A stretch of 64,000 bases of DNA, taken from assembly GCA_017305665.1 (NCBI GenBank), contig JAFKKH010000025.1, positions 1 to 64,000 of the forward strand. The letters run 5' to 3'. Position numbers and translations under genes: made by a program. The notes under the pieces are model-generated. The model worked only from the letters and a program-made list of their open reading frames with translations. It made no database searches and was not told the origin of the DNA. This document shows, one piece after another, positions 11,215-23,471 of the stretch (positions are counted from its first letter, which is position 1; each line of letters starts with the position of its first letter). Origin of the DNA: Hyphomicrobiales bacterium. GTDB lineage: Bacteria > Pseudomonadota > Alphaproteobacteria > Rhizobiales > Xanthobacteraceae.

Positions 11215-11514
11215 GGTTGAAGCTCCATAGACGATCGGACCTCAGCCGCCTATGAGCCTCTTTTGCATCGTTTTCCGGACCAGCGCGAGACCCCTTGCAT
11301 GCCGAGGCCAGACCTTCGCGCAGCGGCGCCCGGAAGGGAGAATGCTTGCCCCTCCGGGCAAACGCCACTATACGTTCCGCCGCTGACGCCGGTGCGGCTC
11401 GCTTCGCCCGGAGTTCCGTCTGATCAAATCCACATAAGATTTTGATTTGACGGATTTTATTTGCAGCAGACCCGAGACTGAAACGACAGCGCGAGTCGCG
11501 CGCTGAAAAGTTCA
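11215..11514. other. intergenic region upstream of tRNA-Glu
   Basis: About 300 bases. It contains one short hairpin (TTGCCC-CTCC-GGGCAA near 11345) without a T tract and an AT-rich patch at 11430-11465 that probably carries the tRNA promoter. No gene is seen. Confidence 0.45.
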
Positions 11515-11589
11515 GCTCCCTTCGTCTATCGGTTAGGACGCCACCCTTTCACGGTGGAGAGAGCGGTTCGATTCCGCTAGGGAGCGCCA
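11515..11589 (+). tRNA. tRNA-Glu (TTC), integration target
   Basis: A 75-base cloverleaf. Acceptor GCTCCCT/AGGGAGC, anticodon stem CCACC/GGTGG with loop CTTTCAC (anticodon TTC), T-arm with GGTTCGATTCC, encoded CCA. Its 3' part from the anticodon stem is repeated, with a 5-base gap, at 22401-22443 on the far side of the mobile element. Confidence 0.96.
11542..11589 (+). repeat. attL (tRNA-Glu 3' half)
   Basis: Starts CACCCTTTCACGGTGGAGAG in the anticodon arm and runs to the encoded CCA. The functional tRNA lies at this end, so its 3' half beyond the crossover was probably brought by the element. Confidence 0.8.
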
Positions 11590-11625
11590 ACAAATTCAAC
11601 GACTTAGCAACTCGCCCGGACGTCA

Positions 11626-11645
11626 TGTCCAACAGATGTCCAATA
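11626..11645 (+). repeat. left integrase arm-type repeat candidate
   Basis: TGTCCAACAGATGTCCAATA, containing two TGTCCAA units 11 bases apart. An identical 20-base copy in the same orientation is at 22278-22297, so one copy lies just inside each end of the element. Confidence 0.6.
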
Positions 11646-11672
11646 AGCGAGCGTTTTCGGCGGTAGACACCC

Positions 11673-11834
11673 CTACTCTTCCGTAGGCAAGGCCACGCCG
11701 TTCTCTTTCGCCATGGCGAACACCTGCGCCTTCACGCGCTCGACGCTCTCCGCCAACTGACTAACGTCCACCACTAACGACATCAGAACGCGAGTGGTGA
11801 AATCGGGCTCGGCCTCTACGATCTTTTTCGACAC
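11673..11834 (-). CDS. small hypothetical protein of the island
   Basis: A 53-residue protein (VSKKIVEAEPDFTTRVLMSL...) ending AKENGVALPTEE, likely one or two helices. GTG at 11834 is chosen because GGAGAG lies about five bases upstream; the frame continues to 11897 without a ribosome site. It is the last gene of the island before the tRNA, beyond the csp terminator, and would need its own promoter. Not recognised. Confidence 0.5.
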   Translation of the reverse strand: MSKKIVEAEPDFTTRVLMSLVVDVSQLAESVERVKAQVFAMAKENGVALPTEE

Positions 11835-11999
11835 TTCGTCTCTCCTTCGGCCACCATGACCATGGCAAAAGCGTAGCCAAACAATCGTTGGTGGCAATCG
11901 GGAATAGGTTCAATTGATTTCTACCGAAGTATATCGTAAGTTACTGATATTGCAGGGGTTCGTTGACAAACTGCAGCGACGTAGTAAAGTCGTACAAAG

Positions 12000-12021
12000 A
12001 AAAACCCCGGCGTCACCGGGG
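12000..12021 (-). terminator. terminator of the capsid operon
   Basis: Read leftwards: CCCCGG, loop, CCGGGG then TTTTTCTTTG. It is placed about 145 bases after the cold-shock gene. Its GGGGTTTTTCTTTG end is repeated on the opposite strand at 20410-20438. Confidence 0.75.
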
Positions 12022-12164
12022 CTTTCTCTGCGGCATCGCCGCGTCTCTTCGCCATCAACCCGCCGCGTTAAGGAGACCACGGCAGGAATGTTGGGATGGA
12101 CGCAACGGCTCTTACGCCCATCCCCACCGCGGTCCGTCTCGCTAAAGCAGACCGCAGCGATCTC

Positions 12165-12365
12165 TTATTCAACAAGCTCAACCCGACGTGCGACCGGCCT
12201 GCCGTCTCGTTCGCCGACTTCGTACCGAACCGGATCAGCATCGAACGGGATGTAGGTGCCCGCGCAGCCGCGAAAGTGAATGAAGACGTCTGGTCCGCCG
12301 TCGTCCGGGGTAATGAAACCCCAACCTTTCTCGCGCTGCCAGAATTTGATCGTACCGGTCTGCAT
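12165..12365 (-). CDS. cold-shock domain protein of the island
   Basis: A 66-residue single cold-shock domain: [20 protein letters not shown] with RNP1-like KGWGFI, then [20 protein letters not shown] with the RNP2-like VFIHF, ending RRVELVE. AAGGAG lies ten bases upstream inside the portal gene, and the ATG shares its A with the portal stop codon (TGATG), so it is translated with the capsid operon. It is quite unlike the host double cold-shock protein at 6122. Likely an RNA chaperone or anti-structure factor for late mRNA; it could instead bind single-stranded DNA. Confidence 0.85.
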
Positions 12366-13438
12366 CACGCCGGCTCCTTCGATGACCAGTCGAGCATGGC
12401 GAGCGCGCCCTTGGCGTCGACTCCGGCATCCTTCGCCATGGCGAGGCCCTGAATAAGCGTGGCAAAGGCGCGGGCCGATCCGCCGGCGTCGAATGCCTGC
12501 GACGGTCCCATGGTGTCGATCGTCACAGCGTCGCCCAGCTTTTCGCTGGCTTCCTCGGCCAGCAGTTCCGCCAAGGGCTGCAACGTCCATTGCGCCAGGT
12601 GCCGCTGTGCTTCGCGCGTCTGCGGTCCTGTAGCCGCACTGGCGAACAGGCTCGGCAGGACACCATAGGCGGCGAAGATCGAAGCCTGTGCCGCTTCCAG
12701 GGTTTCCTTGGCCAGCGACTTTTCAAGGTCTGGTGTCAGGTCCGATGGGCGCCAGTCGGCTTGCGGTGCCGGTCCGCCCGCGGCAGTGACCGTAACGCTT
12801 TCGCGTAACAGCACGCGACCCCGACGCCCAATGAACGACGATGCGATAGTGGTGTTATCGACCTCGGGATTTTCCGGCATCGGCACGACCTGCGAACCGA
12901 GCGGCGCGTTCTGGAACACTTCGCCCAAGGCGGATTCGACCGCATGAAGCATCCCGGCCGAAAGGCTGGCGGTGCGGAGCGGTGACACGCCGAGCCATGG
13001 CGCCGCCGGATCGGCATTGATCCGAACGTGCAGGACTTCGCCAGCGAGCGCCGTCATGCTGCGGCCGCCACCGGCTTCCGGAATGGAAAGGCGGTACGCG
13101 ATCGGCTCGCTGTTCCGGGTGCGCGTGTCCCAATCGCTTGCTGGCACCAAGGCGTCGCCGTCGATCAGCGCCACGAATTCACCGCGCAACGCCAGCGAGC
13201 GACCAAGCATCGCCATCGTTCGACGGTCCAGAAGGTCGGTCCCGTCGACTTGGGCCAAGGCGAAGCCGTTTTGCCAAAGCCCGACACAAGACGACACCGT
13301 TCCGGTCAATTCGCCAAGGCCAGTGCGGCCCTGAATGTAGCTTTCCCGAAAGCGCATTACTTCCGCAGTGAACCCTGTGCCGGCGCTTCTCTTCTCGACA
13401 GCAGGCGCGGTGCGGCGAAAAAGATCGAGGATCCCCAT
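12365..13438 (-). CDS. phage portal protein (HK97 type)
   Basis: A 357-residue portal, the dodecameric ring at the capsid vertex through which DNA passes. It starts [20 protein letters not shown] and shows the family order: [14 protein letters not shown], an [14 protein letters not shown] helix, the wing/stem region with [20 protein letters not shown] (the typical H-[VI]-[RK]-x-N-x-x-x-x-x-x-G-x-S-P motif), [10 protein letters not shown], and a C-terminal crown. AGGAAGG lies seven bases before ATG 13438. The chain is slightly short for HK97 portals (about 380-420). Confidence 0.88.
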
Positions 13439-13440
13439 AA

Positions 13441-13971
13441 TCAAACCTTCCTGTACGCGCGCAGCAAGTCGGCAGCGCCGCTGTTCTGCATCGCTTGCGC
13501 CATCCACGATTCCGATCGGCGCGTGGCAATCGAAATAGAACCGGCCGAAAGCGATTCCGAAGTGGCGCCCGGCGTGCCGGTCTTTGCGGAGAGATAGCCA
13601 GCGAGACGTTTGACCGCTTCCCAAACAATGTCGGGAACGGTCGGCGCAGGCGAACCGCCGCCAACTGTTCCGACGAAGCGATAAGGACCACAGCCGGTCA
13701 GCACGTAACCGCCGAGCGGCGATGCATCAGGCGTGCAATCGTCCCAGCCCGCACCGTTCCAGATTTCGACGGTGGAAATGGTCGCCGGTTTCAACGGCGG
13801 CACCCATTCGCCCGGTCCCTCGACAATCCATGTGACGTCGCGCGAGGTGTAACGCGAAGCGATGTAGGATTCGACGCGCTGCCACGCGATATCGTTGAGC
13901 AAGCTCCCCGTATAGGTCGCCGTGGTCGGATACGAGGAAGGCGCGGCTTCGGCTTGTTTGATGATTTCCAT
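13441..13971 (-). CDS. gp6-like head-tail connector protein
   Basis: A 176-residue protein of the HK97 gp6-like adaptor type that docks on the portal after packaging. Evidence: position between protease and portal, the helical C-terminal end with WMAQAMQNSGAADLLRAYRK (the N-S-G-A-x-x-L-L-x-x-Y-R ending is typical), and an aromatic-rich central beta part (VEIWNGAGWDDCTP). A GGAGGTGAC ribosome site directly precedes the ATG. Family call is from position and C-terminal motif only. Confidence 0.68.
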   Translation of the reverse strand: MEIIKQAEAAPSSYPTTATYTGSLLNDIAWQRVESYIASRYTSRDVTWIVEGPGEWVPPLKPATISTVEIWNGAGWDDCTPDASPLGGYVLTGCGPYRFVGTVGGGSPAPTVPDIVWEAVKRLAGYLSAKTGTPGATSESLSAGSISIATRRSESWMAQAMQNSGAADLLRAYRKV

Positions 13972-13972
13972 G

Positions 13973-14668
13973 TCACCTCCAGCGCAGCGCGGCAGGCATC
14001 GCGCGCTTGATCGTCTGGTCGCTATCCGGCGGGACCAGAATTCCGTTTTTCCAAACCCAACCGGCAGCCTTCTTTTCCTCGTCGGTCTTGGGTTCGTCGT
14101 CAGACTTGTCCGATGAAATGTCGGTCTCTTTGTAAGCCGGCCGCGTCACGATCGAGAGTTCGTAAAGCAGGGCTTGGAAGATCGTTCGAATCCGCGCGTT
14201 GAACATGCCGCGCGCCGGATCGTGACCTTCGTCCGTGTAGATTTCCGGTTTCGCTACGCGGCGCGGCGGAGGCAGCCGAAAGCCGGGCGAGATGCCATAG
14301 GCCAAACCGGAATCGATTTGAGCAAGCACGTCCTGGCCGTAACTCGTTTCCGCAATCTCTGGCGAAATGTCCGCTTCGAACGTCAGAGCTTCGGCGGTAT
14401 CGGTCAGCCGCAATGAATTGGTCAGCTTGGACGCAAGCGGACGATTGAAGTCGTGACCGACAAGCAGATGAATTTCCTTGTCCGGTGCGTTGACGCGAAA
14501 CGCGAACGCCTTCGGCGCAAACTCTTCCTTTTGCGGACGGCCACCCTTGCGACCGCCATCCGAAAGAACAGCGCGCTTTTTGTAGGGGAAGCGACCCCGG
14601 AGCCGGCGCCGCCCTTTTGAGGCGGCGCGCAACTCTAGTTCGCCGATACCGATGGCGAATTCATCCAT
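13973..14668 (-). CDS. HK97-family prohead protease
   Basis: A 231-residue serine protease (S78-like) that trims capsid scaffold during head maturation. Visible motifs: EFAPKAFAF in place of E-x-F-x-x-G-A-F, the catalytic His in LLVGHDFNRPLASK, and the YELSIVTRPAYKETD strand that carries the catalytic Ser. A Lys/Asp-rich tail follows from about residue 185. Its ATG shares one base with the capsid stop codon (TAATG). Confidence 0.88.
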   Translation of the reverse strand: MDEFAIGIGELELRAASKGRRRLRGRFPYKKRAVLSDGGRKGGRPQKEEFAPKAFAFRVNAPDKEIHLLVGHDFNRPLASKLTNSLRLTDTAEALTFEADISPEIAETSYGQDVLAQIDSGLAYGISPGFRLPPPRRVAKPEIYTDEGHDPARGMFNARIRTIFQALLYELSIVTRPAYKETDISSDKSDDEPKTDEEKKAAGWVWKNGILVPPDSDQTIKRAMPAALRWR

Positions 14669-15927
14669 TACTGGATGCCGGTCAGAATCTGAAGCTGTTC
14701 CGCACGCGACACCGTTACATCCATGGTTGCCAGTGCAGTCAGCCGCAGACCACCCGATGCCGCGTCGCTGTAGATATCGCGGATCAGATCGATAGCGCCC
14801 CAGGTGCCGACGAAGATCGGCGCAACACCGCCGACGGTCGTGGTCAGCAGCGCCTTGGACGCCAGCGGCGAACCGCTGGGGGCAGCGAGCGCGTTGCTGG
14901 AAAGCACGACGTTGCCGACGTTGGAGACCAGCTTATCCCACTGCGAAATCGCGGTGCCGGTGAACACGTCATCGTCCATGTCGTCATACAGTTCCGGCCG
15001 CAGCAGCAGATTGATCGAACCGGGACCAGTCGCAGCGTTCGCGACCATGAAGCGGGTCACCGCCGCACGGAACGCAGCCCAGCTTGCAGCCGCACCGATC
15101 GCAGTCGACGTGATGCCATACGGACTCGGCGAACCCGATTTCATCACGCCCGTCGGCTCGCCCGACGAACCGGAGCCCTGAAACACCGCCTTGTCCATGC
15201 CGACCGCCAAGCAGCCATTCATGTCGCGGCGGACAGCCTGCTCGAGCGCATCGCCGCTCTGCTTGAGTGCCTTGCGGGTGATCTTCATCTGGATGCCGTA
15301 AGTGTTATCCGGCGCCAGCGAGCGGTTGGCGGTCGAATACGCGGTCGGCCCAGCAACGGCGCCGGTCTCAGACGAAGCCCAACCACCGGTAACGGCCGAG
15401 TTGGTGATCGGATATTCGTTGGTGCCCTGCGCGATGTTCACGAAGGAGGCGCCCATCTTGCTCGCAACCGAATCCGCAAAGATGCGGTCGATGATCGGTG
15501 CGGTGCTGACCGGATCGGGCGTGCCCGATGCAATGGTTTCGCCGGCACGAATTTCCAGCGCTGCATACGGAATCGGGATGCCGCGGTAACCACCCTGCGA
15601 ACGCAGTTCCTCGATGACTTCGGCGGTCGCGCCGTCGATCTTCGCACCTTCGTCCAGATGCAGAGCGACCTGGCGCAACTCGAATTTACCGATCAGGTCG
15701 GCAAATTCCTTGTCGGAACGGCCTTCCAACTCGGCGCCGGCTTCCTTGCGTTCAGTGTCCTCGACAATGAGGGCCGCGCGATACTTCGACTCGTTGGACC
15801 GATATTCCAGGTCCATCGAATCCATCGAACGCTGTTCGTCTTCGGTCAGATCGGACTTGCCAACAAGACCGGCAAGGGCTTCGCGGATTTGCGACTGACG
15901 TCGCTGGATCGTTACACTGGTAAGCAT
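14668..15927 (-). CDS. HK97-fold major capsid protein
   Basis: A 419-residue capsid precursor. Residues about 1-110 form a charged coiled coil (EALAGLVGKSDLTEDEQRSM...), the expected scaffolding delta domain. The mature fold follows: PVSTAPIIDRIFADSVASKM, WASSETGAVAGPTAYSTANR, the long spine helix with KITRKALKQSGDALEQAVRR, GSGSSGEPTGVMKSG and the C-terminal IFVGTWGAIDLIRDIYSDAA. AAGGAG lies six bases before ATG 15927; the frame is open to 16044 but that part overlaps the HNH gene. Confidence 0.93.
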   Translation of the reverse strand: MLTSVTIQRRQSQIREALAGLVGKSDLTEDEQRSMDSMDLEYRSNESKYRAALIVEDTERKEAGAELEGRSDKEFADLIGKFELRQVALHLDEGAKIDGATAEVIEELRSQGGYRGIPIPYAALEIRAGETIASGTPDPVSTAPIIDRIFADSVASKMGASFVNIAQGTNEYPITNSAVTGGWASSETGAVAGPTAYSTANRSLAPDNTYGIQMKITRKALKQSGDALEQAVRRDMNGCLAVGMDKAVFQGSGSSGEPTGVMKSGSPSPYGITSTAIGAAASWAAFRAAVTRFMVANAATGPGSINLLLRPELYDDMDDDVFTGTAISQWDKLVSNVGNVVLSSNALAAPSGSPLASKALLTTTVGGVAPIFVGTWGAIDLIRDIYSDAASGGLRLTALATMDVTVSRAEQLQILTGIQ

Positions 15928-16259
15928 AGAGACTCCTTCGGTTGGGGTTTCGCCATCGTGGCGAGCAAATCGCGCCACGCGGCGCGAGCTGGTGAGAGTT
16001 CGTTTCCGAACCCGCATTCCTTTTTGGTCTCTGCCGAATGGCACGCCTTACAAAGCGTGAGCAGATTCCCAAGGTCGTAAGCCAATTCCGGCGCATCCTT
16101 CACGCGCTTGACGTGATGAACTTCAAGCGGACCGGGCGCGCCACAGTGCCGGCATTTGAATCCGTCGCGGCGCTTCGCTGCCAGTCGCACAGATTTCCAG
16201 CGTACCGATCGAATAACCTTCGCCGAGTGCGCGTCGTATTCCTGGCGCTTCACAGCCAA
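15912..16259 (-). CDS. HNH endonuclease (packaging-associated)
   Basis: A 115-residue HNH nuclease with zinc knuckle CRHCGAPG and core LEVHHVKRVKDAPELAYDLG, NLLTLCKACHSAET. Small HNH proteins next to terminase in HK97-type phages and in capsid-forming satellites stimulate terminase cleavage at cos sites. It overlaps terL by 10 bases upstream and the capsid gene by 16 bases downstream, so it is embedded in the head operon. Confidence 0.9.
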   Translation of the reverse strand: MAVKRQEYDAHSAKVIRSVRWKSVRLAAKRRDGFKCRHCGAPGPLEVHHVKRVKDAPELAYDLGNLLTLCKACHSAETKKECGFGNELSPARAAWRDLLATMAKPQPKESLCLPV

Positions 16260-17764
16260 ACCGGCGCCCTCGCTTTACGAGCAGGCTGCGCCAGCATCCG
16301 CGCGCCTTGCGCGACGGCAAGCACGCTGGCAGACGCGGCATCGATGCGCCCCAGGCTGCGGGCCTTCGCTAATTTGATATTGTTCGCGGGATCGCGGAGA
16401 CACACGGCGTCGGCAAATGCCGATCGCAGCAGCAGCGATGGCGATGCCTTCACCTTGCCGTCAAAGCACGCGCGACGAAAACGGTCGCAATCTTCGTTGC
16501 CATCTTTGAAGCCGAAACCGCGCCACACGATCGGAACGCGAATGCCGGCGGCGTCGATCGCCTGTCCGAGTTCGGCTTGCTTGTAGCGGTCCATGCAAAG
16601 CGCGGCGATGCGTTCACCTTCGACATGGCGCATGACTTCCGACAGCCAAGGCGCGACGGGAACGGTCTGCGCTCCAAGCGTGGACAATTCGCCACGGCTC
16701 GCCATGTCGTTGTAGCGCGCGCCAACACCGTCAGCCGCGCCGCGGTCGGTCAGATTCGGGAATGATGGAAACCAGCCAAGGCATTCGAGCCGGCCGGTCG
16801 AAGGCCAGAAGAACGCCGCAGCGGTCATGGACGCCGAACCGCCAAGGTCGATTCCGATGACGCATTGCCCGTCGCGCGGCGGTAGTTCGTCCATCTCGCA
16901 ACTCAGCCATTCGTCGACCGTCAGCAATAGGTCGCGCGTCTCGCCGGAAATGCGTTCGTTTCGATTGTAAAGCCGGAACGTCGTCAGCGAATTGCCACCG
17001 CGGGCAATCGCGCGGCGCGCTTGCGCCTGCAACCATTCGATATTCGAACCGATGCCGCACAACGCGCCCGGATTTGCGATCAGCAGAGAGTCCAGATCGT
17101 CAGCCGGCAGTCCCGGCGCCGGCCGATGCTCTTGCCGATAGACGCCTTCCTGTTCCTCATCCAGCCATTTGCTGAACGGGTGCGCGTCGTCAGGTGCGCT
17201 CGTCGAAATAATCAGGGCGCGACCGCCACGCTTGCCACTGCCGGACAGCAGCGCGTGTTCCAGTTCGTCGCCCTTGTCGCGCGCCCAATGGCCGCGTTCG
17301 TCCAAGATCGTGAGTGTAGGTGCGCCACCGAGCGCGGATTTGCCGTCAGCCGCGAGGCAGCGCAGCAGATGCACGCCGTTGGTGTCCTCGTATTCGATTT
17401 CCAGTCGGGGCGCGCGGCGGAACGTCAGCCGCTTCTGCACGTCCTCGGGCAGGTAGCGCGAATAGCCGGCAACGAAATTCCAGACCAGCCGCGCCTGGTC
17501 GCGCGTGCGGGCGCCAACCGGAATTTCCCGGTTTGGCTGCGTGTCGCCGATCTCGCCGAGCAGTTCGCCAAGGGCGAGGCCAGACGAAAGAGCGGTCTTC
17601 GCGTTACCGCGGCCGATCGACAGCGCGGCGACCGAAACGCCGGACGCCAATGCGCCAGTTACGAATTGCTTTTGGAACGGAGCGACCTTGAGCGACTTGC
17701 CGGCTAACGGTCCCTCGGGGATTTTCAGCGTTTGAAGGAAGCGAATGGCCTTCTTGGCGTTCAA
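16250..17764 (-). CDS. terL: terminase large subunit
   Basis: A 504-residue packaging motor and nuclease. The ATPase half has a Walker-A-like RGNAKT (in SIGRGNAKTALSSGLALGEL, near residues 50-55) and a Walker B LTILDERGHW. The nuclease half begins with IGIDLGGSASMTAAAFFWP and has LCMDRYKQAELGQAIDAAG near the end. The first usable start in the frame is TTG at 17764, with no ATG or GTG between it and the upstream in-frame stop; the ribosome site is poor. GNAKT instead of the common GNGK[ST] is a mild departure. Confidence 0.87.
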   Translation of the reverse strand: MNAKKAIRFLQTLKIPEGPLAGKSLKVAPFQKQFVTGALASGVSVAALSIGRGNAKTALSSGLALGELLGEIGDTQPNREIPVGARTRDQARLVWNFVAGYSRYLPEDVQKRLTFRRAPRLEIEYEDTNGVHLLRCLAADGKSALGGAPTLTILDERGHWARDKGDELEHALLSGSGKRGGRALIISTSAPDDAHPFSKWLDEEQEGVYRQEHRPAPGLPADDLDSLLIANPGALCGIGSNIEWLQAQARRAIARGGNSLTTFRLYNRNERISGETRDLLLTVDEWLSCEMDELPPRDGQCVIGIDLGGSASMTAAAFFWPSTGRLECLGWFPSFPNLTDRGAADGVGARYNDMASRGELSTLGAQTVPVAPWLSEVMRHVEGERIAALCMDRYKQAELGQAIDAAGIRVPIVWRGFGFKDGNEDCDRFRRACFDGKVKASPSLLLRSAFADAVCLRDPANNIKLAKARSLGRIDAASASVLAVAQGARMLAQPARKARAPVWL

Positions 17765-17855
17765 GCGGCACCGCCAAGGCTGCGAGCGCGAGAGGAAAAG
17801 TCCCCCCCTCCGACGTTCCCCCCTAAATCAAATCGGGGTATTGGGACCATTCCGC

Positions 17856-18209
17856 TCACTTGCGCGCCTGGATGACGTAGGCAGTGCCAGCGGGATCGAT
17901 CGACGTTGATATGATCGTGTAGGTCACGCCATTGACGACGAGGCGATCGCTTGTGCTTGGCTCAATGTCGATAGATGACGTGAGCACGAACGCTTTGCGG
18001 TCGGTCTGCAGGATCAGCGTGCCGTCGACGTCGTGCGCGCTGTAATCATCGACCCAGCCGGTGCAGTCGTGGTCAACCCATGTGGTCGTCGGGTTGAACG
18101 GGTCATCATCGGACTCGAGATGCTGGACCGTCAGTGCGTAGGGCAGATCGGCAGCGACCAGTGCGTCGGTCAGGCGGGTGGCAAGCGTGCCATCGGTAAG
18201 AATAGACAT
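17856..18209 (-). CDS. phage head-joining-like hypothetical protein
   Basis: A 117-residue, mostly beta protein (MSILTDGTLATRLTDALVAA...) with GTLILQTDRKAFVLTSSIDI and DRLVVNGVTYTIISTSIDPA. The pattern of a beta barrel ending in a V-N-G-x-x-Y-x-I strand resembles phage head-tail joining and tail-completion proteins. It is first in the head cluster, where a small terminase would be expected, but it lacks a helix-turn-helix. Assignment is by appearance and context. Confidence 0.5.
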   Translation of the reverse strand: MSILTDGTLATRLTDALVAADLPYALTVQHLESDDDPFNPTTTWVDHDCTGWVDDYSAHDVDGTLILQTDRKAFVLTSSIDIEPSTSDRLVVNGVTYTIISTSIDPAGTAYVIQARK

Positions 18210-18296
18210 ATGACCATTATCCTACTACAGGACTATCATCCTGTCAATAGGACTGCGGTCTACCGCCGCCGTATTCGGCTGCAATTATGGGTTTGC

Positions 18297-18400
18297 ACTG
18301 TAGCGTAGCCGTAGCAAAAGCGTAGCAAGCTACACATTGCTACACGCCCACAAGCGTAGCGTAGTGTAGCACCACCCTATAGGGGTGCTACACTGCTACG
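18297..18400. repeat. GTAGC/GCTAC iteron-like cluster, candidate replication origin
   Basis: Six GTAGC units (starting near 18300, 18305, 18311, 18322, 18356, 18366) and four GCTAC units on the other strand (near 18329, 18339, 18387, 18395) are packed in about 100 bases just downstream of the primase/helicase gene. A perfect 10-bp stem, GTGTAGCACC (18364-18373) with GGTGCTACAC (18384-18393), covers the rep stop codon. Satellite and plasmid origins are often iteron clusters next to rep. Confidence 0.5.
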
Positions 18401-20373
18401 GGGCCAAGCTCAGTTGGTGGTGGAAACAGGTTGACCAACGGCGTCAGCGCCCGTGCTGGTCGAACGGCGATCATGCCATCCAAAGCATGGATGCAGCCCT
18501 TACGCGCCAGCCCATCGTGGATGCGGCTATACGTGGCCCGCGGGTTCGCGTCGTCGTCCTTGATGACGCCTTCACGGTGCAGTCTCTCGCGCCAAGCGTC
18601 AGCCGATGCCCTGCCGCCGGAACCGTTTTCCCGAATGACGTTCTCGAGCGCGCGCATGGCGTTCGTTTCGCGGTCGGTCAGTTTCTTACGCGCCTTCGCC
18701 TCTTTTACCGCAGGCGTCTTGGAGAGAATGAACGCCGTGACGGGGTCGCCATCTTCGTCGCGCCCAAGGTGGACAACCTGACCAGCAAACGAGACCAGTT
18801 CGCCCTCCTCCTGATCGTTCGCCTTGGTGACGGTCGCGGTCTTGACCGCATCGCCGGTAATCTGCACTGCCAGGTCAACGTCACCTTCGCGGGCATTGCT
18901 GCCGCGCTCGCCGCGGGTCGTATCTTTGCCGGTATGACCGATGCCGGCGATATGGACGTTTAACCGTTCATGAATCAGCCGCAGATGTGCCGCCGCTTGG
19001 TTCTGATCCTTCGCGGCGTTCTCGTCGCCACCGCCGGCCGCAATTCCCTTATTGTAGGTATCGAGCACAATCAGGCCAACGGGAACGCCGAATGCCTTGG
19101 CCGCGCGCTCCACGATGGAAACAATCAAATCCACGCATTGCGGATTGAGCAGGTCGACCAATTTCGGAACAACGGCGATCGGCAACCCATGCAGGTCGTC
19201 GCGCATCTTATATGCCGCAAGGCGGCGCTTTGCCTGCCCGGACCGCTCAAACGCGAAATAGACGACGCCGCAGCATGTCTTAATCCGATGCCCACGCCAG
19301 TCGATGCCAGCAGCCGCATGAACGGCGATATCCGTTATCAACGCCGATTTAAGTGAACCGGGTTCGCCGAACCACGTTGAATTCTCGCCCAACGCCATGA
19401 CGCCTTTATGCAGCCAGACCTTGGGCGCCGACGTCGCGCAGTCATCGAATAGCGTAAATGGCGTGGACAGAGTTGCCCCGGCCTTTGCGGCGATTTCGGC
19501 AACGGCAGCACCAAACATGTCATCGACCGTCATCGCCGGGTATTTGATACCGTCCTTTAGGCCGTTGTGGATGGCCTTGAGGTTGTTGGCGCTGTCGTCC
19601 CACCCGGCGTCCTCGCACGCCGCTTTCAGTTCATCGTGCGCGACATCGTACCCGAGTTCGCCGTTGCCGACGTAGCGCCCGACTCGCAGGGCGATATCGA
19701 ATATCCCGTTATTGACGCCACCAAGCTCCAGCTTGAGGATGTCCGCGCACGCCTGTTTTAATACCCGATCGGCGTGCAGACCTTCCGCAGGTCGAAAGTC
19801 TCTTGGCGCTTCGCGCGCCGTGCCGACACGCTCCAAATGTTCATCACGCTTCCGCCATGCCGGCCGCAGGATATCACCATCGCAAAGCATCTCGTTGCCA
19901 AGCCATTCATACGGACCAGCCTTCTTACCGGGTTGTTTCTTCGGATTGGTGAAGATGCTCGGCGGGCACATCGCGTTGGCGTTGCCTACCAGCAGATCGC
20001 CCCAACCGGTTTCCTTCATTCTCAGAGACTTCAATCCGGTGGCGTCGTTCAGACGAAACCATATGTGAGTGCCGCCCGATGGCGTCGCAACGTGAGCCGC
20101 TGGCAGGGCGAAGCCCGTAAGTTCCTGAAACCACGCTTTCGCGATCTCTTGCTTGCCGGCCTCGATGTCCATGACCGCCAAGCGCGATGCGCCGGGGTGC
20201 AGACCGATGTTATTACCGCTCGCGATCCAAACCGGCCAGACTGTCGGGTCCGACGTATGACGGTTCTGCCACTCGTCGCCGATCGGGTTCTTATCGCCTT
20301 TATGTACCTCGTGCAGAGCGAGTTGATTGTGTTCGGCAAAGTCGAGAAAGCCACTTGATATTGTGGTCATCAT
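18388..20373 (-). CDS. bifunctional primase/polymerase-helicase replication protein
   Basis: A 661-residue replication initiator-like protein. The N-terminal part (about 1-190) is a Prim-Pol domain: NIGLHPGASRLAVMDIEAGK (metal Asp), HVATPSGGTHIWFRL (the H-x-x-T-P-S-G-G-x-H motif). The centre is a RepA/RecA-like ATPase with P-loop variant FGEPGSLKSALITD (about 335), Walker B GLIVLDTYNKGIAAGGGDEN, and IAGIGHTGKDTTRGERGSNA. The C-terminal region is helical, perhaps winged helix. This fusion is typical of satellites and small phages. Two adjacent ATGs start the gene. Confidence 0.87.
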   Translation of the reverse strand: MMTTISSGFLDFAEHNQLALHEVHKGDKNPIGDEWQNRHTSDPTVWPVWIASGNNIGLHPGASRLAVMDIEAGKQEIAKAWFQELTGFALPAAHVATPSGGTHIWFRLNDATGLKSLRMKETGWGDLLVGNANAMCPPSIFTNPKKQPGKKAGPYEWLGNEMLCDGDILRPAWRKRDEHLERVGTAREAPRDFRPAEGLHADRVLKQACADILKLELGGVNNGIFDIALRVGRYVGNGELGYDVAHDELKAACEDAGWDDSANNLKAIHNGLKDGIKYPAMTVDDMFGAAVAEIAAKAGATLSTPFTLFDDCATSAPKVWLHKGVMALGENSTWFGEPGSLKSALITDIAVHAAAGIDWRGHRIKTCCGVVYFAFERSGQAKRRLAAYKMRDDLHGLPIAVVPKLVDLLNPQCVDLIVSIVERAAKAFGVPVGLIVLDTYNKGIAAGGGDENAAKDQNQAAAHLRLIHERLNVHIAGIGHTGKDTTRGERGSNAREGDVDLAVQITGDAVKTATVTKANDQEEGELVSFAGQVVHLGRDEDGDPVTAFILSKTPAVKEAKARKKLTDRETNAMRALENVIRENGSGGRASADAWRERLHREGVIKDDDANPRATYSRIHDGLARKGCIHALDGMIAVRPARALTPLVNLFPPPTELGPVAV

Positions 20374-20407
20374 GTAATAGGATACTCTCCGTTGATTGAG
20401 TGCATTG

Positions 20408-20436
20408 AGCCCCGCCGGCCAGGGCGGGGTTTTTCT
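20408..20436 (+). terminator. rightward terminator inside the leftward island operon
   Basis: CCCCGCC (20410-20416) pairs with GGCGGGG (20423-20429), followed by TTTTTCTTTG. It lies between two leftward genes (stop at 20440, start at 20373), so the T tract points against them. Read leftwards it has no T tract. Confidence 0.6.
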
Positions 20437-20439
20437 TTG

Positions 20440-20640
20440 TCAGACGGGAAGCGGCTGATACGCCGCAGTCGGCGGAATGAGTCCGCGAGCGTGTTTCAAT
20501 CGATCGATGTTGGCCCGCACTCGATCGAAGCCGTCCTGCCACTGAGGAATTGACGACAGCTTGCCCGCTGGGAATTTCGCGGCGTGATCGATCAATTCGG
20601 CTTCCAAGGCTTTGATGTGATCGTCGAGAATCTTCCTCAT
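20440..20640 (-). CDS. small helical hypothetical protein of the island
   Basis: A 66-residue protein (MRKILDDHIKALEAELIDHA...) with two amphipathic helices and an aromatic C-terminus. Its ATG overlaps the stop of the AlpA-like gene by four bases (ATGA), so the two are co-translated. Not recognised; perhaps an accessory regulator or a partner of rep. Confidence 0.7.
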   Translation of the reverse strand: MRKILDDHIKALEAELIDHAAKFPAGKLSSIPQWQDGFDRVRANIDRLKHARGLIPPTAAYQPLPV

Positions 20641-20813
20641 GCCGCGGCCTGCGTCCGCTTCGCCAACCACTGGCGTGCCGCTTCCTCTGAAATGCGAACG
20701 TGCCTGCCGATCTTGAACGTCTCCGGCGCGTCGTTCTGTTTCTGCAACAAATAAAATCCACCGCGGCTAATGCGGTGTGCTTCGCAAAATTCCTGAATCG
20801 TCAGACTTCCCAA
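20637..20813 (-). CDS. AlpA-like helix-turn-helix regulator/excisionase
   Basis: A 58-residue winged-helix DNA-binding protein: GSLTIQEFCEAHRISRGGFY (helix-turn-helix), then LLQKQNDAPETFKIGRHVRI (wing) and SEEAARQWLAKRTQ. This is the MerR/Xis-like fold of AlpA regulators, the usual activators of satellite induction and excision. TTG at 20813 is chosen because AAGGAG lies about eight bases upstream; an in-frame TTG at 20837 has no ribosome site. Confidence 0.8.
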   Translation of the reverse strand: MGSLTIQEFCEAHRISRGGFYLLQKQNDAPETFKIGRHVRISEEAARQWLAKRTQAAA

Positions 20814-20918
20814 GGTAGTTCTCCTTTCATGACGCAAAAATTCCCGCCGTTGCCTTTCCCAAGGCGCGAGCGGGGTGCGGTGCCGTCTTGGCGCCGACTT
20901 CGATTTTCGAGTGTGCGA

Positions 20919-20947
20919 ACCTTACTACGTTCAGGGGCGTTTGTCAA
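20919..20947 (-). promoter_or_regulatory. candidate promoter of the alpA-rep operon
   Basis: Leftward TTGACA (20947-20942), 17-base spacer, TAAGGT (20924-20919). It is about 105 bases upstream of the AlpA-like start, in the AT-rich gap between int and alpA. Confidence 0.5.
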
Positions 20948-20979
20948 CAACCCGTTGATTTTACTGATGTTTTGTCAAC
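20942..20979. promoter_or_regulatory. repeated TTGTCAAC operator-like sites
   Basis: TTTGTCAAC occurs at 20940-20948 and 20971-20979. The first copy forms the inverted pair GTCAAC-AACCC-GTTGAT with the following bases. The repeats cover the -35 element of the candidate alpA promoter and may bind the AlpA-like protein, the integrase or a host repressor. Confidence 0.42.
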
Positions 20980-21023
20980 CTATAATTACAAGGTGACAAG
21001 TAACCGCTTGATCCAGTTGATGC

Positions 21024-22259
21024 TTATGAAAAACGCGGTGCGTTCGCGCGAATGGCGTCGGCGACGAACGACGGCGCGAGGTGCGCGTAGTGCTGCTCCG
21101 TTATGCGCGTGGTCGTATGCCCAAGCTGGCGGGCCACGATCTGAAGCGACACGCCGCGCATGACAGCGTGCGACGCCCAAGAATGCCGCAGGGCATGGAA
21201 GTTAATCGCCGGCTCGATCTTGGCAGTCTTGCACGCATTTTTCAGCGGATCCTTTTGGTGATCCCGCTGCCATGGTGCACCGTTCTCCTTGACGAGCAGC
21301 GTGTCCGCTGGCGATCGATCCTTCGCGATCTGGCCGATATAGGCGGCACCTTCGGGCGTCAAAACGACATGCCGCGGTTTGCCGCTCTTGCTTTCGCGAA
21401 TATGCAGCGTGCCACTGTCGGCATTAAAATCTTCAACACGCAAAGCGATCAGTTCGCCGTAGCGGCATCCCGTCTCCAGCGCCACGCGCACAAGGGCCTG
21501 TAGCGTCGGCGAGCAGGCTTCCAATAGACGCTGAATTTCATCCATCGAAAGGTAGCGAATGCGGGCAGTGTCGACGCTCTCAAATGGCGTCACACGGCGC
21601 CAAGCGGCATCCGATGGCACCTTGCCATCGCGCCACGCCATGTTGAGCGCGGCTTTAAGCGTCGTCAGAATTCGGTTTGCCGTCGACTTGCGGCGCCGGT
21701 CGCTCTCAGGATGCGTCTGACTCTTGAATCGCTGGCGTCGGCCTGCCTTTGTACGGATGCGCGCGGGCGCCTTCGCCACGTCGGCGTGCCATCGTTCGAT
21801 CTGCTCCTTGGTTAGCTTGGCGACTTCGATGTTGCCGAAAGCGGGCAGGATAAAAGCCTCGGCGGCGTAACGCCCTTCCCGGCCGGATTTCGTCTTGGTC
21901 TCGAGGTATTCTAGATAGGTCACCATGGCATCCGCCACGTTCAGCGGTTTGGCGACTCCTGCCTCGCTATGCGCGTAGTCCACCATACGCTTGCGAGCGA
22001 GCGTCTGCGCCTGTTTCCAATCGAGGAGGACGACGCCATCGGCGTCGCCGAAATCATCGGCGGTGGCGAGCGTTTCGGTTTTATAGGACTGATCGCCACT
22101 GTAGAGCCGCAGCACCCACTTTCCAGCGCCCGATATTGGGCGCCGATAGCCGATGTGCAGACCAGGCTCTAACGCCCGCCAATAGGGCTTTCCTCGCGCT
22201 TTCAGCCGCGATCGCGCGGTGCGCGTGTCCAATATGCTGTCTCGGATTGTGCGTGCCAT
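21024..22259 (-). CDS. int: tyrosine recombinase/integrase
   Basis: A 411-residue site-specific recombinase for tRNA-Glu integration. An N-terminal arm-binding part is followed by a SAM-like core-binding domain (about 105-205, with LTKEQIERWHADVAKAPARI) and the catalytic domain. There, Arg is in ALETGCRYGELIALRVEDF, then HALRHSWASHAV (H-x-x-R), LGHTTTRITEQHYAHL with the second His and the nucleophile Tyr. ATG 22259 is preferred; upstream extension to 22295 would run into the right arm-type repeat. Confidence 0.93.
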   Translation of the reverse strand: MARTIRDSILDTRTARSRLKARGKPYWRALEPGLHIGYRRPISGAGKWVLRLYSGDQSYKTETLATADDFGDADGVVLLDWKQAQTLARKRMVDYAHSEAGVAKPLNVADAMVTYLEYLETKTKSGREGRYAAEAFILPAFGNIEVAKLTKEQIERWHADVAKAPARIRTKAGRRQRFKSQTHPESDRRRKSTANRILTTLKAALNMAWRDGKVPSDAAWRRVTPFESVDTARIRYLSMDEIQRLLEACSPTLQALVRVALETGCRYGELIALRVEDFNADSGTLHIRESKSGKPRHVVLTPEGAAYIGQIAKDRSPADTLLVKENGAPWQRDHQKDPLKNACKTAKIEPAINFHALRHSWASHAVMRGVSLQIVARQLGHTTTRITEQHYAHLAPSFVADAIRANAPRFS

Positions 22260-22277
22260 GGGTGGAGAATGACACGG

Positions 22278-22297
22278 TGTCCAACAGATGTCCAATA
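22278..22297 (+). repeat. right integrase arm-type repeat candidate
   Basis: An exact copy of the 20-base repeat at 11626-11645, same orientation, placed 19 bases upstream of the integrase start. Besides recombination, integrase binding here could repress int. Confidence 0.6.
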
Positions 22298-22400
22298 TCC
22301 ATGGATAGACGCCCGTTTACGACCATATGCGCAAGTGACGTAAGATATTGAGAAATATCACTTGGAGGTTTCGCCAGTGGACGCCCCTAGACGAATTTAA

Positions 22401-22443
22401 CACCCTTTCACGGTGGAGAGAGCGATTCCGCTAGGGAGCGCCA
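22401..22443 (+). repeat. attR (decayed tRNA-Glu 3' half)
   Basis: Identical to the tRNA-Glu anticodon arm for 24 bases (CACCCTTTCACGGTGGAGAG...), then missing five bases of the T-arm, then identical for 19 bases to the CCA end. This marks the right boundary. Confidence 0.88.
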
Positions 22444-23213: not shown

Positions 23214-23414
23214 TCAGATGGCGATGGCCACGGCTCCCAGGATAACTTCGAGTACGGTCCCACCGACGAGCTGTCCAAACGAATTGCCGGCACCGGCAGT
23301 GGTCCCGTTCTGGGGTGGATTGGGTCCAGTACTGGGGAGGTGCATCATCCCGCCTGAAACGGCATCGAGTTGATCTTCGGATAGAAACTTAATCTCGTTG
23401 ATCTGCGTATTCAT
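23214..23414 (-). CDS. double-glycine leader bacteriocin/RiPP-like precursor peptide
   Basis: A 66-residue peptide. The leader MNTQINEIKFLSEDQLDAVS-GG has the classical L-[ST]-x-x-[EQ]-L-x-x-[VI]-[SA]-G-G signature recognised by peptidase-containing ABC exporters. The predicted mature part begins MMHLPSTGPNPPQ, continues NGTTAGAGNSFGQLVGG, and ends in a hydrophobic helix (VLEVILGAVAIAI). It has no Cys, so lanthionine or disulfide bridges are not possible. GGAGATAAAC precedes the ATG. No exporter, immunity or modification gene is adjacent, so it would depend on a distant exporter. Secreted peptide or quorum signal are alternatives to bacteriocin. Confidence 0.68.
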   Translation of the reverse strand: MNTQINEIKFLSEDQLDAVSGGMMHLPSTGPNPPQNGTTAGAGNSFGQLVGGTVLEVILGAVAIAI

Positions 23415-23471
23415 GTTTATCTCCATGTTCAAACGACGCACTTCGCGCCGTCTAGCGAGCATGGACAGCAC

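Follow-up and report, generated by a model that had tools for sequence, protein, structure and literature searches.

Can an island that encodes a phage head and a packaging motor, and in which no tail gene is recognised, be a mobile element in its own right, or is it what remains of a prophage? The question is raised by positions 11542-22443 of the window, a 64,000-nt stretch of contig JAFKKH010000025.1 from a Hyphomicrobiales bacterium of the Xanthobacteraceae (assembly GCA_017305665.1). A preliminary description of this DNA had proposed a lifestyle similar to that of capsid-forming phage-inducible chromosomal islands (cf-PICIs), and the anatomy of the island, with its own head and packaging genes and no tail, supports this proposal well. 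The island is one member of an alphaproteobacterial family of mobile elements of about 10 kb which have their own head and packaging motor and no recognisable tail. We regard it as very probably a capsid-forming phage satellite, and borrowing of helper-phage tails is the most likely way in which the family spreads.

Gene content and ends of the island

Families were called by profile (Pfam and PHROG) for 13 open reading frames (ORFs) of the window. The recognisable island genes all lie on the minus strand, in the single direction that had been described. The packaging motor consists of the terminase large subunit TerL (16250-17764; phrog_9, 8e-55) and an HNH endonuclease (15912-16259; PF01844, 2e-10), followed by an HK97-type major capsid protein (14668-15927; PF05065, 2e-9), an S78 prohead protease (13973-14668; PF04586, 1e-14), a putative gp6-like head-tail adaptor referred to here as conn (13441-13971) and the portal protein (12365-13438; phrog_12, 3.5e-5). 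On the other side of terL lies the gene previously called head-joining-like, which we identify as head closure protein Hc1 (17856-18209; phrog_161, 1e-18). The identities given earlier to the capsid and portal genes stood, while their extents did not; reading from the first start codon makes both ORFs too long, and the likely starts are 15927 for the capsid (its longest ORF reaches 16044) and 13438 for the portal. Overlaps of 1-16 bases had been noted through the head module, and we find 1 nt between capsid and protease, 10 nt between terL and HNH and, on the assumption that the conserved methionine at 15927 is the capsid start, 16 nt between HNH and capsid. None of the 13 ORFs matched a tail, tape-measure, lysis or CI family, in agreement with the earlier description and, for tail and lysis genes, with what is required of a cf-PICI.

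The remaining genes lie on both sides of this module. A protein combining Prim-Pol and AAA_25 domains (18388-20373; AAA_25 2e-22, Prim-Pol 4e-15) is a primase/helicase resembling Pri-Rep replication proteins, and a tyrosine integrase (21024-22295; PF00589, 2e-30; start codon uncertain) and a cold-shock-domain protein (12165-12365, likely start 12365; phrog_729, 3e-7) lie towards the two ends; profile matches confirmed all three identities, as they did those of terL, HNH, capsid, protease and portal. The AlpA/excisionase-like helix-turn-helix (HTH) protein (20637-20837) matched HTH_17 at 3e-5, which is below the Pfam cut-off, and phrog_66 at 1.5e-3, so its earlier naming is weakly supported; homologues occupy the same position in three relatives (L022, L024 and L025). 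The relative L026 has a gene similar to the cold-shock gene in the same place. Two small ORFs, both on the minus strand, have no assigned function: 20440-20670 has no homologue in the loci searched, while 11673-11897, an addition to the first gene list, is conserved at the same end of L022 and L026.

The adaptor required a different kind of evidence. For this gene, earlier named connector, profile searches up to E 1 matched no sequence family. A structure model of the protein (pLDDT, predicted local distance difference test score, 84.5) found its best matches in the Protein Data Bank among neck chains of the Rhodobacter capsulatus gene transfer agent (RcGTA) and phage Milano, with weak Foldseek E-values (best 1.4e-3, none <= 0.001). 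This weak fold match, together with the position of the gene, suggests a head-tail adaptor. The model of the capsid (pLDDT 48) was not used.

The ends of the island are set by a tRNA-Glu (TTC) gene, which is intact at 11515-11589 on the plus strand. Its 48-nt 3' end (11542-11589) is the left attachment (att) copy, and a 43-nt copy at 22401-22443 (plus strand) is the right one; they are 89.6% identical over 48 alignment columns, including a 5-nt gap, and lie 10,859 nt apart from start to start. This bears out the tRNA-Glu duplication reported to bound a 10.9-kb island. The site is without the island in sister genome G008, where the left flank extends into tRNA-Glu and a segment of the right flank comes about 0.9 kb further on. 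Both ends also carry an identical 20-nt repeat (11626-11645 and 22278-22297, plus strand) containing two copies of TGTCCAA, and a fifth copy lies at 22226. A search of both strands found just these five in the island, all near its ends and in a single orientation, and they are probably arm-type sites of the integrase. In another sister genome, G005 (C1:1759608-1778156), a copy of the tRNA-Glu 3' end was detected about 18 kb from its own tRNA-Glu, which suggests another island at the same site.

Relatives and their maintenance

A capsid search of 150 related genomes gave matches in eight at E<=0.001, own genome included. Strong matches came from five (own, G003, G015, G057 twice and G077), with 57-79% identity outside the window. 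Eight capsid-relative loci were found in the GTDB collection and 20 viral contigs, each <= 14,058 bp, in IMG/VR. With the capsid profile, 297 genomes of the order yielded 16 matches, eight of them strong (E below 1e-140, own included), and 398 Pseudomonadota yielded 11, the five strong ones (own included) all belonging to the same class. The portal profile matched four of 385 evenly drawn alphaproteobacteria, own included; one match is weak and one is a partial gene. As the preliminary description had proposed, capsid, portal and TerL were also searched against phages (50,697 records). Portal and adaptor had no match, the capsid had seven at 21-26% identity, and TerL had 224, the best about 28% identical among the matches listed; no close capsid or portal relative was thus found in these records. 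A TerL tree of 47 rows, in which phage sampling is thin, placed the 42 family rows in one group (support 100/100); the remaining five rows, two resembling tailed phages and three from a second lineage of satellite-like elements, fell outside it.

The tail-less gene order, which had been suggested as a thing to look for in relatives, was found in many alphaproteobacteria. The order terL-HNH-capsid-protease-[adaptor]-portal recurs in several alphaproteobacterial orders with no tail block, the exceptions being loci that are cut or decayed (L018, L019, L074 and L117 among others). The integrase has one of two positions, the replication end or 2-3 kb past the portal. Among 27 distinct chromosomal or chromid loci, 21 have a far-side copy of the tRNA 3' end, and the repeat-to-repeat span is 9,707-11,731 nt in 19 of the 21, the other two measuring 6,585 (L019) and 13,731 nt (L155). 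A second end is possible in L026, with a span of 11,437 nt. No boundary was set for L017, L018, L111 and L156, where no tRNA was found, or for L021 and L074, where no repeat was found. Targets across the family are tRNAs for Glu, Ser, Asn, Cys, Arg, Met and Leu.

Ratios of nonsynonymous to synonymous change (omega) were calculated for the window against L037, L022, L025, L030, L026 and L024, and are approximate given that most values of synonymous divergence (dS) are close to 1 or higher and that some L030 genes are partial. Values were 0.09-0.16 for terL, 0.18-0.24 for the capsid, 0.19-0.37 for the protease, 0.17-0.28 for the adaptor, 0.09-0.24 for the portal and 0.16-0.34 for HNH; the closure gene gave 0.28-0.38, with one comparison saturated and no closure gene in L030. 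Integrase rows were unreliable and not used, since the profile may pick a neighbouring integrase. These ratios clearly point to head genes that are under purifying selection and maintained.

The same gene content could also be left where a prophage has had its tail and lysis genes deleted and is now decaying at its site of integration. The absence of tail genes agrees with such a history, as do the 5 nt missing from the right att copy and the existence of clearly decaying relatives (L117 with broken frames, L019, L074). However, elements of the tail-less form are found in many genera, at various tRNAs, and hardly vary in length, the head genes are open and selected, the gene order is unlike that of the tailed phages compared, and no tailed close relative appeared among the phage records or the related loci. 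Relatives with the same ends and a tail module were sought in particular, and the related loci have the head module with no tail block. We consider a deleted prophage very improbable and reject it on the strength of the recurrent relatives of near-constant size and the purifying selection; these observations uphold the earlier suggestion that nothing was lost by recent deletion.

Long maintenance of head genes would equally be expected if the particles served anti-phage defence or had been domesticated for the host and did not serve movement of the island itself, and satellites often carry defence genes. Yet PADLOC, applied to 49 selected non-core ORFs from ten elements, reported a single family, a cold-shock match in one ORF, and on this result defence cargo was rejected. 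Mobility is indicated instead by the integrase, the att sites and the changes of tRNA target, and this leaves a host-serving role the least probable of the alternatives considered here. A wider profile scan covered 95 non-core ORFs from 21 loci, chosen as coding-looking, and the families listed included replication, HTH, HNH and connector families; in the PHROG scans those listed were 25 of 43, 25 of 29 and 25 of 69, and rare tail-labelled matches may lie outside them.

Some loci depart from the common form. In L117 the terL, capsid and portal frames are broken, and we read it as a decaying copy. L019 (5375-12013) is a 6.6-kb member with no protease or portal, and one of its genes matches a PHROG of DNA topoisomerases; we read it as a decayed or more dependent form. 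Two family members with opposite adaptor types, L155 and L156, share the 1.58-Mb replicon (a chromid) of Pseudorhodobacter turbinis, NZ_CP039965.1. The second, distant lineage (L027, L028, L118, L121 and L122; capsid about 22-26% identical) comprises islands with integrase, portal, protease and capsid, whose tRNA or tmRNA end repeats lie about 10.1-11.0 kb apart, the repeat of L027 measuring just 14 nt. The motif upstream of terL described below is absent from them, and they look like another set of capsid-forming satellites.

Candidate packaging site, probable head size and neck

The non-coding gap between hc1 and terL (17765-17855) contains a conserved motif, GGTCCCAATACC (17837-17848, minus strand), a candidate cos or packaging-initiation site. 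Its consensus GGTSCCAATR occurred in non-coding DNA upstream of terL in 24 of 29 cases in the first comparison and, after known duplicates and cut contigs had been dropped, within 150 nt upstream of terL in 31 of 38 elements. When elements found through the motif were excluded, the proportion was 25/32, against 25/6,400 for 150-nt stretches drawn at random from these loci, the real motif sites included. The elements with no site at this distance are L019, L025, L044, L046, L110, L112 and L156, and in L046, L110, L112 and L156 a copy lies 335-612 nt upstream. A longer DNA pattern built from the sites matched 11 IMG/VR contigs, all 11 with a family terL just downstream; L124, L126, L131, L132 and L134 are near-copies, leaving seven distinct elements. 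Because this pattern is long and derived from the family, the result tells us chiefly that contigs of other kinds in IMG/VR lack it. The core GGTSCCAATRCC gave four matches in the own genome and two for a reversed control, and therefore the core alone is not specific. Since the motif adjoins TerL and HNH, a cos or other packaging-initiation site is the likeliest role, although it may be a promoter or regulator site. It also offers a DNA-only handle by which elements of this family could be found in metagenomes.

The size of the elements bears on the head they could fill. HK97 has a T=7 shell and a genome of 39,732 bp (record length), and scaling volume as T^1.5 from these values gives about 11.1 kb at T=3 and 17 kb at T=4. 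The usual element of 9.7-11.7 kb would accordingly fit a T=3 head, while L155 (13.7 kb) falls outside this fit. In one viral contig, L125 (9,848 bp), both ends lie inside the capsid gene and the integrase side is joined to the replication side, so that it is likely an excised circular or concatemeric copy; this single permuted layout could also come from an assembly effect.

Two types of adaptor are present in the family. The conn type of the window lies between protease and portal, and the other type (phrog_442) lies before terL. Among 54 loci, duplicates and cut contigs included, conn was found in 37, the other type in 16, both in none and neither in one (L018); among the 34 non-duplicate loci in which both places are readable, the numbers are 25, 9, 0 and 0. 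The TerL tree requires at least 3-4 changes of adaptor type on well-supported branches and rejects the second type as a single clade (p-AU 9e-7), though recombination of TerL itself could cause the same scatter. Closure proteins follow the adaptors and were never crossed: phrog_161 stands before terL with conn, phrog_25 after terL with the other adaptor. In a prophage region of a same-order genome (L076), which also has portal and tape-measure genes beside it, the phrog_161 gene sits between adaptor and tail terminator. The adaptor changes and this placement fit a neck matched to the tail of the helper. As a natural experiment, the repeated changes between the two adaptor types could show which of the neck proteins determines the tail that is borrowed.

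Likeness to known systems and proposed cycle

Classical PICIs and P4-like satellites have no capsid of their own and use helper heads, whereas this island encodes capsid, protease and portal. HK97-like siphophages (HK97, mEp390) share the capsid family and a TerL about 28% identical, and have HNH/TerL cos-type packaging along with tails and lysis genes; they are not among the capsid or portal tblastn matches. Gene transfer agents (GTAs) have tail genes and no integrase, while the island has an integrase and no tail match, and an intact tailed prophage would differ by its tail module, none of which was matched here.

The closest likeness is to cf-PICIs, as they are described in the literature: they are defined by capsid, protease, portal, connectors, TerL, TerS and HNH (PMC10690885), further features being AlpA, head-tail adapter genes and Pri-Rep (PMC10448857), and their capsids form three clades (PMC11389934). 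The island has its own capsid, head protease, portal and TerL with HNH; head-tail connectors (Hc1 by phrog_161, the adaptor by weak fold match and position); a Pri-Rep type of protein in its Prim-Pol and AAA_25 gene; and an integrase with a specific chromosomal att site. Its AlpA-like gene is a weakly matched candidate for the regulator, HTH_17 (PF12728) being among the AlpA markers of phage-inducible chromosomal minimalist islands (PICMIs; PMC10803314). It differs in its alphaproteobacterial hosts and its size of about 10.9 kb, compared with the main hosts and the average of 14 kb given for cf-PICIs (PMC10803314), and also in that TerS is not recognised, the closure gene stands before terL and the family has two alternative adaptors. 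Going by published descriptions, the island works like a cf-PICI, and it may be either a member of that group or an independent lineage. No alphaproteobacterial cf-PICI is named in the titles or abstract openings of the literature searched. The family would extend capsid-forming satellites to alphaproteobacteria from soil, plant-associated and marine sources, a class absent from the cf-PICI hosts in the passages compared.

Two other systems show partial likeness. The cf-PISP satellite-plasmids of Vibrio have head, terminase, HNH and connector genes and no tail genes, but are episomal, with plasmid maintenance genes and another tyrosine recombinase in place of an integrase (PMC13230959), whereas the island is integrated at a tRNA. 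The Streptomyces phage satellites MulchRoom and MiniFlayer have their own head and packaging genes, and the MulchRoom tail is thought to come from the helper; they differ from the island, with its Prim-Pol and tRNA integration, in having direct terminal repeats, virulent helpers and no recognised primase (PMC10690885). Two records considered as a gammaproteobacterial cf-PICI for comparison were dropped, namely Proteus record L153, which has the look of a tailed prophage by ORF layout alone, and Pusillimonas plasmid L154, whose annotation is phage-like and shows a connector and further morphogenesis genes after the head genes.

In the cycle we propose, growth of a helper siphophage would cause the AlpA-type regulator to switch the island on, after which it would excise and replicate. 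TerL and HNH would cut the concatemers at the motif upstream of terL, and one 10.9-kb unit would fill a small T=3-sized head. The neck would then accept a finished tail of the helper, which would also provide lysis, and the chimeric particle would deliver the island to a new cell. Beyond the preliminary description, the analysis adds the motif upstream of terL, the mutually exclusive adaptor types and the proposed T=3 fit. A broader version is possible, though we hold it tentatively: a class-wide alphaproteobacterial family of tail thieves, independent of published cf-PICIs, with TerS-less packaging at a conserved site in front of terL, a T=3 head, helper switching through exchange of a single neck protein, and an adaptor type that predicts the tail used.

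Several points weigh against the satellite reading. TerS had no Pfam or PHROG match in the window element except for an HNH-part match to phrog_4581, and a TerS-like match was seen in one relative, L031. End repeats are just 14-22 nt in 14 of 21 loci (E 0.009 to 9e-6 per locus); for the seven long ones (42-64 nt; window, L019, L022, L107, L109, L116 and L155), five spans are 9.7-10.9 kb and the others 6.6 and 13.7 kb. The ends of L125 do not overlap, and about 24 capsid codons are missing. Profile detection over the 54 loci found AlpA-like proteins in four and Prim-Pol in 13, so the regulatory and replication ends, as far as profiles tell, vary across the family. L039 has a holin-like protein (11367-11672), the sole lysis-type match among the families listed, and in L020 a protein of 86 aa is labelled "tail fiber". 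Just 18 of the 34 readable elements gave a match for a closure protein (14/25 with conn, 4/9 with the other adaptor), and a two-protein neck is therefore not universal; the other 16 either lack such a protein, have one too divergent to detect or receive it from the helper. Finally, the window's own genome matched neither PF10145, the one tape-measure family tried, which has matches in 8 of 17 carrier genomes, nor the GTA family PF13547 (GTA_TIM).

Some of these points could speak for a self-sufficient element which makes tail-less or simple-tailed particles, or which hides unrecognised tail genes in small ORFs such as 20440-20670 and 11673-11897; the labelled tail fiber and the elements with no detected closure would then find an explanation. 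This we judge very unlikely, as the recognised genes fill so much of the 10.9 kb that a tube and a tape measure would not fit, and all 34 readable elements have an adaptor, a protein whose known role is on the path from portal to tail. Another possible source of tails is a host GTA instead of a helper phage, given that the best fold match of the adaptor is the RcGTA neck and that 14 of 17 carrier genomes match PF13547. However, PF13547 is matched at a similar frequency in the order as a whole (90/121 genomes) and is unmatched in the window's own genome; the structural match, moreover, is weak, and the fold of the adaptor is a generic one. GTA tails are not favoured on these counts and seem to us similarly improbable; helper-phage tails remain the preferred source.

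Outside the right att copy, a small ORF (23214-23471, minus strand) contains the stretch LSEDQLDAVSGG, which we take to resemble a double-glycine bacteriocin-type leader.

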